From Halolamina sp. CBA1230 (lineage in GTDB: Archaea; Halobacteriota; Halobacteria; Halobacteriales; Haloferacaceae), in assembly GCF_002025255.2 (NCBI RefSeq), contig NZ_CP054587.1:2418001-2482000 (forward strand): DNA of 64,000 nt. The letters run 5' to 3'. The stretch's first letter is position 1. Each line of letters opens with the position of its first letter. The position numbers were made by a program, and so were the translations under genes. This document shows positions 2,495-15,209 of the stretch, in pieces. The notes below the pieces were generated by a model. It worked only from the letters and a program-made list of their open reading frames with translations. It was not told the origin of the DNA and made no database searches.

Positions 2495-2500
2495 AACGGC

Positions 2501-2552
2501 GCTTAGGACGCTATCCCGTAGGGGTCCGCCGGTTCGAATCCGGTCCCGCGCA
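2501..2552 (+). pseudogene. tRNA-Leu(UAG) 3' half, probable attachment site
   Basis: From the anticodon loop CTTAGGA (anticodon TAG, 2504-2506) through a class II variable arm, T arm (CCGG-TTCGAAT-CCGG) and acceptor CCCGCGC plus discriminator A, this is a normal tRNA-Leu 3' half. Upstream, the anticodon 5' stem pairs in only four positions, the D arm is absent and the acceptor 5' strand matches in only five bases. I therefore read it as the 3' fragment regenerated or left by integration rather than a functional tRNA. No CCA is encoded. Confidence 0.6.
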
Positions 2553-2560
2553 CTGACTGA

Positions 2561-2661
2561 GTTTTCGAGCGCAGCGAGAAAACGAAGAAGGGAGCAGGAG
2601 CTGATTCGCGGCCCAGAGAACGAACGGAGTGAGTTCTCGCGGTTCGAACCCGGTCCCGCGA
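2561..2661 (+). repeat. Hairpins plus a second copy of the tRNA-Leu 3' end
   Basis: Two hairpins, GTTTTC...GAAAAC (2561-2583, loop GAGCGCAGCGA) and GAGAAC...GTTCTC (2616-2638, loop GAACGGAGTGA), lead into a degenerate copy of the tRNA-Leu T arm and acceptor strand at 2639-2661. The same architecture follows tRNA-His and tRNA-Pro in this window. The loops share the pattern GARCGNAGYGA. The rest of the gap between 2327 and 2678 holds nothing else that I can support. Confidence 0.65.
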
Positions 2662-2678
2662 TCCTCTGCTCGCTCCCG

Positions 2679-7484: not shown

Positions 7485-7556
7485 GTCCGGGCTGGGGTAG
7501 TGGTATCCTTCAGCCTTGTGGGGGCTGAGACGCGGGTTCAATTCCCGCGCCCGGAC
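7485..7556 (+). tRNA. tRNA-His(GUG)
   Basis: Complete cloverleaf: G-1 at 7485 faces C73 at 7556. The acceptor TCCGGGC pairs with GCCCGGA, the D stem is GGGT/ATCC, the anticodon stem CAGCC/GGCTG carries loop TTGTGGG (anticodon GTG at 7518-7520), and the T stem is GCGGG/CCCGC with loop TTCAATT. The G-1:C73 pair is the histidine identity element and is genome-encoded here. CCA is not encoded. Confidence 0.95.
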
Positions 7557-7593
7557 CTCGTTGTCTCCGAGCAACTACGCGAGGAGACACGAG
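7557..7593 (+). repeat. Hairpin directly after tRNA-His
   Basis: CTCGTTGTCTCC and GGAGACACGAG pair with one bulged T. The arm starts immediately after the discriminator base, as it does behind tRNA-Pro. It may assist 3' trailer processing or termination, or be an end of the repeat element that follows. Confidence 0.6.
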
Positions 7594-7604
7594 TCCATCG
7601 GTAA

Positions 7605-7732
7605 GGGATTGAACCCTGCCAGTCGCGCGCAGCGAACGAGGCGGGACCGAAGGTCCCGCTGGCAGCCGGGCGCAGCCCGGCGACGAAGTGAGCGAGCACG
7701 TCTGGCTCCGGTTCAATTCCCGCGCCCGGACC
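7605..7732 (+). repeat. tRNA-His 3'-end mimic unit 1
   Basis: The unit begins with an inverted T-arm (GGGATTGAACC, 7605-7615) and ends with a 23-nt exact copy of the tRNA-His T-arm/acceptor end (7710-7732). Between them lie 7611-7640 and 7687-7714, identical to contiguous sequence in the unit behind tRNA-Pro. They are separated here by a 46-nt block (7641-7686) made of two perfect hairpins (GCGGGACC-GAA-GGTCCCGC and CCGGGC-GCA-GCCCGG) plus six bases. No ORF of substance. Confidence 0.75.
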
Positions 7733-7736
7733 TTCT

Positions 7737-7845
7737 GGCTGTGAACGAACGTGAACAGCCGAAGGTCCGTCGAAGGGAATCGAATCAGGGAGTGGAGCGA
7801 GCGAAGCGAGCGGAACGACCGTGGTTCAATTCCCGCACCCGGACC
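7737..7845 (+). repeat. tRNA-His 3'-end mimic unit 2
   Basis: A hairpin GGCTGT...ACAGCC (7737-7760; loop GAACGAACGTGA), flanked by near-complementary CGGACCTTC/GAAGGTCCG, is followed by a degenerate inverted T-arm (GGGAATCGAATC, 7775-7786). Next comes a GAGCGAGCGAAGCGAGC stretch, then a second 23-nt copy of the tRNA-His 3' end at 7823-7845 with a single G-to-A change. Confidence 0.7.
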
Positions 7846-7952
7846 TTTTCCTGCGAACGAAGTGAGCAGTGAAAAGTCTGCCAAGCGGGGATTGAAGCAG
7901 GGAACGAAGTGAGCGACGCGAACGGAGTGACCGTGGTTCAATTCCCGCGCCC
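7845..7952 (+). repeat. tRNA-His 3'-end mimic unit 3 (truncated)
   Basis: A hairpin CTTTTC-CTGC/GCAG-T-GAAAAG (7845-7876) with loop GAACGAAGTGA is followed by an inverted T-arm-like GGGGATTGAAGC (7887-7898) and two more GAACGNAGTGA blocks. A third T-arm copy (7935-7952) then matches 18 nt of tRNA-His before diverging in the acceptor strand. It is the most decayed unit of the array. Confidence 0.65.
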
Positions 7953-7969
7953 CCGTTCGTTGGCAGTGA

Positions 7970-14995: not shown

Positions 14996-15068
14996 GGGAC
15001 CGTGGGTTAGCCTGGTATACTTCGGGCCTTGGGTGCCCGTGACCTCGGTTCGAATCCGAGCGGTCCCA
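14996..15068 (+). tRNA. tRNA-Pro(UGG)
   Basis: Complete cloverleaf of 73 nt: acceptor GGGACCG/CGGTCCC, anticodon stem CGGGC/GCCCG with loop CTTGGGT (anticodon TGG at 15030-15032), T arm CTCGG-TTCGAAT-CCGAG, and discriminator A. CCA is not encoded. It is followed by a hairpin and one 3'-end mimic. Confidence 0.95.
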
Positions 15069-15121
15069 TTCTGGCGACGCAACGACGAGGAGCGATAGCG
15101 ACGAGTCCGCGTCGCCAGAAT
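15068..15121 (+). repeat. Perfect 13-bp hairpin abutting tRNA-Pro
   Basis: ATTCTGGCGACGC (15068-15080) and its exact reverse complement (15109-15121) enclose a 28-nt loop. The first arm starts on the discriminator base of the tRNA, so the stem would form right at the RNase Z cleavage point of the precursor. Confidence 0.75.
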
Positions 15122-15128
15122 GGACTAT

Positions 15129-15209
15129 GGATTCGAACCCTGCCAGTCGCGCGCAGCGAACGAGAGTGAGCGAGCACGTCTGGCTCCGGTTCGAATCCGG
15201 GCGGTCCCA
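15129..15209 (+). repeat. tRNA-Pro 3'-end mimic unit
   Basis: A perfect 11-bp inverted repeat, GGATTCGAACC (15129-15139) and GGTTCGAATCC (15188-15198), flanks an inner sequence. The unit ends with a copy of the tRNA-Pro acceptor end up to 15209 (one mismatch in the T stem). Inner positions 15135-15192 are a 58-nt block that also occurs, split by a 46-nt insert, behind tRNA-His. From 15210 to 15386 nothing else can be supported. Confidence 0.75.

Follow-up and report, generated by a model that had tools for sequence, protein, structure and literature searches.

In Halolamina sp. CBA1230, the tRNA-His gene and a large share of the other tRNA genes are followed by gene-less units of about 85–180 bp, which are very probably insertions by which the original tRNA 3′ end was displaced. 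We regard these units as non-autonomous elements inserted at the T-loop by a recombinase acting in trans, with a folded hairpin serving for attachment, and place the probability of this reading at roughly 0.6. The window analysed here is the whole 64,000-nt stretch of DNA from the 3.47 Mb genome referred to below as G000, and it contains three units behind tRNA-His, one behind tRNA-Pro, and a decayed unit that has been separated from its tRNA (Table 1). Every unit has the same order of parts, with a trailer hairpin followed by an inverted T-arm (I), a core hairpin, and a displaced direct copy of the tRNA 3′ end (D). The original prediction described three copies of the tRNA-His 3′ end, one exact, one with a single change, and one truncated, each preceded by an inverted T-arm-like segment, and both the copies and the inverted segments are found as described, with the last 24 nt of the tRNA repeated at 7710-7733 (100% identity), 7823-7846 (96%), and 7935-7958 (75%, the match being lost after 7952). 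The trailer hairpin ahead of each inverted arm was absent from that description, and is also part of the unit. Sequences of the type GARCGNAGYGA, likewise predicted in the array, are present at four sites (7799, 7855, 7902, and 7920), out of six on the plus strand of the window and one on the minus strand, with the remaining two plus-strand sites located in the displaced unit (2567 and 2622).

Table 1. Positions of tRNA genes, units, and integrated elements in the window (numbered from its first nucleotide), together with the tRNA-Val element of genome G212 (numbered within locus L247).
Feature	Whole span	Strand	Trailer hairpin	Inverted T-arm (I)	Core	Displaced copy (D)	Remark
Right attachment repeat of ~14-kb element at tRNA-Leu(TAG)	2498-2552	+					tRNA itself outside the window
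Decayed tRNA-Leu(TAG) unit	2553-2662	+					integrated element lies between it and its tRNA
tRNA-His (GTG)	7486-7557	+					host gene; target is its 3′ end
Unit 1 at tRNA-His	7558-7732	+	7558-7604	7605-7616	7617-7709 (hairpin)	D1, 7710-7732	D1 exact over 23 nt
Unit 2 at tRNA-His	7733-7845	+	7733-7774	7775-7786	7787-7822	D2, 7823-7845	D2 with one change
Unit 3 at tRNA-His	7846-7952	+	7846-7886	7887-7898	7899-7934	D3, 7935-7952	oldest unit; D3 truncated
tRNA-Pro (TGG)	14996-15068	+					host gene; 3′ end unlike that of all three genus-mates
Unit at tRNA-Pro	15069-15209	+	15069-15128	15129-15139	15140-15187	15188-15209	same arrangement as the tRNA-His units
tRNA-Val element, G212	L247 4184-14607						10.4 kb; tyrosine integrase and 1276-aa Eco57I-like restriction-modification (methylase) protein

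Chance repetition was rejected as a source of these copies, with 19 of the 42 tRNA genes in G000 having a copy of their own 3′ end (no more than 4 mismatches of 22) within 600 nt downstream, compared with 0/42 upstream and 0/576 for the ends of clearly different tRNAs at the same loci. In three genus-mates, copies follow 15/43, 7/41, and 8/42 tRNA genes. An 84-nt query around a 58-nt core sequence singled out in the original prediction gave 10 matches in G000, eight of them in tRNA trailers (L001-L008), one in the trailer of tRNA-Ser(gga), and one in tRNA-Pro itself; copies therefore exist elsewhere in the genome, and lie at tRNA genes rather than at random sites. The strict I-core-D pattern is present in 240 of the 293 genomes searched from the order, and the reversed control pattern does not appear among the matches listed. 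In a sample of 294 genomes of the phylum it is present in 48, all of which belong to the order (represented by 53 genomes), and the 241 genomes from outside the order gave no match. A stricter pattern applied to a species-level genome collection returned at least 80 stretches, with 79 of the 80 listed bearing names that we take to be those of halophilic archaea (Halorubrum, Natrinema, and Haloferax are among the genera), and one named only ‘Euryarchaeota archaeon’.

The location of the units is equally consistent. A same-strand tRNA lies directly upstream at 28 of 30 loci, the remaining two being situated behind tRNA-integrated elements, and 15 of 15 further loci adjoin a tRNA. In the set of named units, 74 of 81 have a same-strand tRNA within 1.5 kb, at a median distance of 47 nt from the end of the tRNA to I; five of the seven without a tRNA are no more than 170 nt from a sequence end, and two, as judged by eye, follow a displaced tRNA tail. 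A scan of a viral collection yielded 11 stretches, one of which (L083) looks haloarchaeal on inspection and has a unit behind tRNA-Glu. A viral origin was dismissed, with the remaining stretches consisting of tRNA genes, palindromes that resemble tRNA but do not look halophilic, or isolated matches of the kind expected by chance. The viral contigs L085, L086, L087, L088, L090, and L091 contain near-perfect palindromes of a tRNA-like 3′ end around a short loop, with arms that extend into the acceptor part; these contigs do not look haloarchaeal, and their palindromes are possibly a bacterial counterpart of the units.

Comparison of orthologous tRNA loci reveals clean pairs of filled and empty sites among the genus-mates at tRNA-Leu(caa), tRNA-Gly(ccc), and tRNA-Val(gac). 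Of the three tRNA-His units in the window, genome G132 has the third alone, which follows the tRNA immediately. The units of G210 begin in the same way as units 1 and 2, so that the first unit behind the tRNA is present in this genus-mate also; G555 has a decayed unit 3, and several family members have no unit at all. Among 172 orthologue pairs, 58 match at a score of at least 0.35, and in 26 of the 172 the start of the trailer in one genome corresponds to the sequence behind D in the other (null 107/9506); 18 of these 26 pairs, at 10 tRNA loci, score at least 0.60. The first trailer is common to both genomes in 32 of the 58 matching pairs, so that many units have simply been inherited, and reciprocal matches at tRNA-Val(tac), tRNA-Arg(gcg), and tRNA-Phe are contrary to a strict newest-first order. 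At the tRNA-His of G033 (L109), two exact 101-nt units lie in tandem, and their inverted arm matches the tRNA-His variant of other genera (TTCGAT) and not the local TTCAAT, which suggests transfer between species.

Units and larger integrated elements occur side by side at some tRNAs. Positions 1-2552 of the window are the inside of a ~14-kb element at tRNA-Leu(TAG) (G000:C1:2406443-2420552, L248), which has an integrase-like ORF of 364 aa (276-1370 of L248) immediately behind the tRNA and a long attachment repeat that extends back toward the anticodon arm. In genus-mate G210, a unit with the same start as the decayed unit beyond this element lies directly behind tRNA-Leu(TAG), and in G020 a unit separates tRNA-Leu(tag) from the integrated element that touches the tRNA in G000, indicating that this unit arrived later than the element. 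At tRNA-Asp of G000 (L050), an insert of ~0.8 kb with a small ORF lies between the tRNA and three exact end copies, the first of which includes anticodon-arm sequence, and is thus an ordinary attachment remnant ahead of the units. With large elements present at the same tRNAs (L246, L247, and L248) and leaving 3′-end copies of the same nature, the units could be viewed as scars of ordinary tRNA-integrating elements whose middle part was deleted. This is very unlikely, as deletions would not yield hundreds of units that are alike in size and hairpin plan and also carry an inverted arm, the inspected end of a large element (L247) has no inverted arm, and in the Leu and Asp elements the copies are longer, extending toward the anticodon arm.

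The copied block corresponds to nt 53-73 of the tRNA (21 nt), and has sharp limits across 51 copies. At the 5′ limit, identity to the tRNA is 1.00 at nt 53 and 0.76 at nt 52, falling to the random level of 0.18-0.25 at nt 49-51, and at the 3′ limit it is 0.88 at nt 73 and then 0.65, 0.61, and 0.41, with these last values inflated by T-rich trailers. A direct repeat of the tRNA 3′ end flanks the insert, and the tRNA itself stays intact. Counted over the 51 copies with GTTC, with 12 copies without GTTC set aside, a single extra T-loop base is found in 15 D copies, at several different tRNAs, and one base fewer in none, a bias that plain decay would not predict.

Three of 43 imperfect D copies are closer to the tRNA of a sister species than to the local tRNA, two of them clearly so. 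G000 has a tRNA end unlike that of all three genus-mates at both tRNA-Pro and tRNA-Thr(tgt), with D identical to the genus-mates’ version, which points to D as the old end and to a present tRNA end that most simply came with the unit. The displaced copy is thus ancestral at both of the loci (2/2) with a derived tRNA end and a clear ancestral state, although in an argument that rests on two loci a later mutation of the tRNA could mimic an ancestral D. The inverted arm at tRNA-Thr(tgt) matches the present, derived tRNA end and not D, and in 15 units with differences between tRNA and D in nt 54-64, I agrees with the tRNA at nine sites and with D at one, a preference explained in part by decay of D.

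These observations bear on the possibility of a different kind of enzyme, whether a Cas1/casposase-like enzyme or an HUH (IS200/IS605-like) transposase, with the 3′ end as the duplicated target, or reverse transcription of RNA cut at tRNA 3′ ends, with a constant 21-nt copied block beside the tRNA, mostly newest-first growth, and sense-strand hairpins all compatible with such an origin. We consider it improbable. In target duplication both copies are alike at insertion, and an arm that follows the derived end, as in the one clear case of tRNA-Thr(tgt), is not predicted; moreover, IS605-type elements and PATEs are without target duplication, as far as Table 4 of the relevant paper indicates (PMC3119063).

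Statistics on the inverted arm were obtained from selected units, comprising 106 with an inverted arm of no more than 4 mismatches from among 229 tRNAs, of which 67 are in register and 56 were used for pair counts. The arm shows 2.2 mismatches of 12 against its own tRNA, compared with 3.9 for foreign ends sought in that stretch and 5.2 for a complement-only control, with a foreign end better than the own end in 14 of 916 tests and tied in 99. The inverted and direct arms covary, and across 146 genomes 260 of 273 units retain the pair at nt 57, as do 74 of the 81 named units. The arm wobble test is conflicting, with G.T exceeding A.C (31 vs 15) in one set, and C.A exceeding T.G (9 vs 4) among the 13 exceptions at nt 57 in the 146 genomes, and does not favour the sense strand. 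Pairing with I clearly above control is limited to nt 53-65 of the tRNA, as measured on 39 copies whose inverted arm was good, the acceptor half of I being scarcely better than a swapped control.

The cores follow a different pattern from the arms. Nearest-neighbour cores share an amino acid in 8 of 67 cases (5.7 expected), and strict tRNA-specific lineages were ruled out on this independence of core and amino acid. An identical 39-nt core is found at the tRNA-Leu of G132 and at a tRNA-Arg of another genome, and in a short core class changes on both sides are seen at three stem pairs (20 distinct sequences). Cores common to different tRNAs imply that the arms are rewritten or exchanged, perhaps by template switching inside the hairpin. 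Arms that always match the local tRNA despite shared cores, together with the perfect tandem units at the G033 tRNA-His and the reciprocal unit orders, might instead reflect local DNA amplification, in which the inverted and direct copies would be made by fold-back or template-switch synthesis at the 3′ end of the tRNA and then multiplied through slippage. Such amplification is quite unlikely to account for the units, however, as it offers no source for the cores and trailer hairpins that units have in common, gives no reason for an ancestral distal copy, and predicts fresh perfect arms including the acceptor part, which are not seen even in the exact tandem pair.

The hairpins of the units fold better on the tRNA-sense strand. 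The I-core-D hairpin is more stable on this strand in 69 of 87 cases (mean z of -4.6 vs -3.5) and the trailer segment in 66 of 87, with the RNA fold of 7763-7846, in unit 2, giving z values of -4.1 for sense and -1.8 for antisense. The tip motif GA-R-C-GNA-G-Y-GA occurs in trailers 56 times in sense and 9 times in antisense, with R and Y forming a Watson-Crick pair in 55 of the 56 sense copies, and presumably could form tandem G.A pairs and a GNA triloop. Membership of a known RNA family was set aside, as at the Rfam gathering score the only matches in the window are its two tRNAs, with none in L077 or L081, and a scan for sigma-70-type promoters and terminators, using models not made for archaea, found none.

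Structure on the sense strand, compensatory changes in arms and core, a copied block that stops exactly at the mature tRNA 3′ end, and T-rich unit starts would all suit host RNA elements, that is, 3′-trailer RNAs kept by selection for tRNA 3′ processing, termination, or regulation. We nevertheless regard this as unlikely. The fast turnover within a single genus, evident from the differing numbers of tRNA genes with copies in G000 and its three genus-mates, is at odds with it, clean empty sites and exact tandem copies are unexpected of a conserved function, and neither the extra T-loop base of so many copies nor the displaced ancestral end is accounted for.

Insertion of the units is well supported, and their stacking behind a tRNA is seen directly, whilst we infer both the enzyme and what the fold does. 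In the proposed mechanism, a unit would enter the tRNA gene at the T-loop (nt 53-60), and its carried copy (about nt 57-73) would replace the tRNA 3′ end and push the old end downstream, with the result that the tRNA would stay intact and repeated insertions would stack behind it. Some integrases cross over in the T-loop of tRNA genes, and would be expected to displace the old end and to leave a boundary at the T-loop, which is the pattern in the units. As the units have no genes, the enzyme must act in trans, and would most likely be a T-loop-targeting tyrosine integrase of resident integrative elements; for a tyrosine recombinase as the insertion enzyme we would give slightly less than even odds. 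Integrase genes are found only in the neighbouring large elements, the units being too short to encode one. The tRNA-Val element of G212 (L247) is a candidate source of the enzyme, with an integrase of 354 aa that matches PF02899 (phage integrase SAM-like domain) above cut-off and PF00589 below cut-off (E 1e-4). The displaced tRNA end of this element starts at nt 53, as in the units, and has the same extra T-loop base as the tRNA-Val(gac) unit of G000. It counts against the proposal that integrases are unlikely to accept a duplex circle of ~100 bp as a substrate.

The inverted arm would pair with the unit’s own 3′-end copy in a single strand to form a hairpin, or a dumbbell if circular, and this hairpin would contain a double-stranded T-arm site, with the G.A/GNA tips of the sense hairpins perhaps presenting the fold. 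An inverted arm would be useless for an ordinary double-stranded site, and would make sense with a folded single strand as the substrate, a possibility to which we give clearly less than even odds. The earlier idea of a mini-element targeting the 3′ ends of tRNAs gains support from the filled and empty sites, the end displacement, the block limits, and the location at tRNAs throughout the order. Gene conversion, by which such an element was suggested to be remade, is not needed for the direct copies, but is possible for the inverted arm, since cores are common to different tRNAs and arms fit the local tRNA.

The units resemble the tyrosine-integrase elements of tRNA genes (archaeal SNJ2, pNOB8, and SSV types) in their insertion in a tRNA gene, in the restoration of the gene by a carried 3′ end, in the old 3′ end left as a direct repeat, and in repeated insertion at one tRNA. 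In contrast to those elements, which measure kilobases, the units are gene-less and short, combine an inverted T-arm copy with a conserved hairpin plan, and can be found at as many as 19 of 42 tRNA genes in one genome. The recombination site of integron attC arrays, like the single-strand attP of filamentous phages, consists of a folded strand bearing inverted arms, and attC arrays also grow at a fixed place and conserve structure more than sequence. The units are comparable in all of this, with the fold as their putative recombination site. Unlike attC, the units have no cassette genes and target the tRNA T-loop; a two-box attC plan is unsupported, as the acceptor box does not pair above control. 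CRISPR arrays likewise alternate a repeat, for which the tRNA end stands here, with spacers, and growth is mostly beside a fixed leader, a position taken here by the tRNA. The spacers of the units, in contrast, are related and structured, follow a common hairpin plan, and include the repeat in inverted form. Casposons have a casposase gene and a target duplication of 14-15 bp, compared, in length only, with the 21-nt copy of the units. Hairpins near the ends on one strand are shared with PATE and IS200-IS605 elements, the trailer and core of the units being more stable in sense, whereas the 21-nt copy with sharp limits, present in every unit by definition of the dataset, sets the units apart.

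In the portions available of the Haloquadratum mobile-element paper (PMC3119063), haloarchaeal MITEs, PATEs, and SMRs are transposase-free repeats classed by terminal inverted repeats or near-end palindromes, and these units do not feature among them. The units are similarly short, palindromic, and without a transposase, and would likewise be mobilised in trans, but their inverted arms are the local tRNA’s own sequence and their site is always a tRNA 3′ end; a full-length relative with both arms was not met in a non-exhaustive look. The available parts of an archaeal integrase review (PMC8371274) describe 3′-end copies from large elements, and those of a tRNA-fragment paper (PMC9897764) describe partial tRNAs, rather than these units, and no description of the units was found in the accessible literature outside subscription papers and preprints.

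The units probably represent a kind of non-autonomous, site-specific insert, seemingly undescribed in this form in the print sources available to us. The pattern is common in the order and absent from the sampled relatives, yet lies in trailers without an annotated gene or RNA family. A bolder reading, to which we give less than even odds, is that they form a haloarchaea-wide class of mobile elements without genes, each bringing along a complement to its target. The inverted arm would pair with the tRNA end on the same single strand, this fold would be the attachment site, and adaptation to a new tRNA would take place through changes in the two arms, with the hairpin core kept. If the interpretation of the units as inserts is right, much of the DNA behind haloarchaeal tRNA genes would be a record of insertions, readable roughly in order, with the tRNA 3′ end repeatedly replaced by incoming DNA, and caution would be needed when calling tRNA fragments or provirus boundaries from tRNA 3′-end repeats in haloarchaeal genomes. 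Additionally, a non-coding element of ~100 nt would show how little site-specific integration needs.
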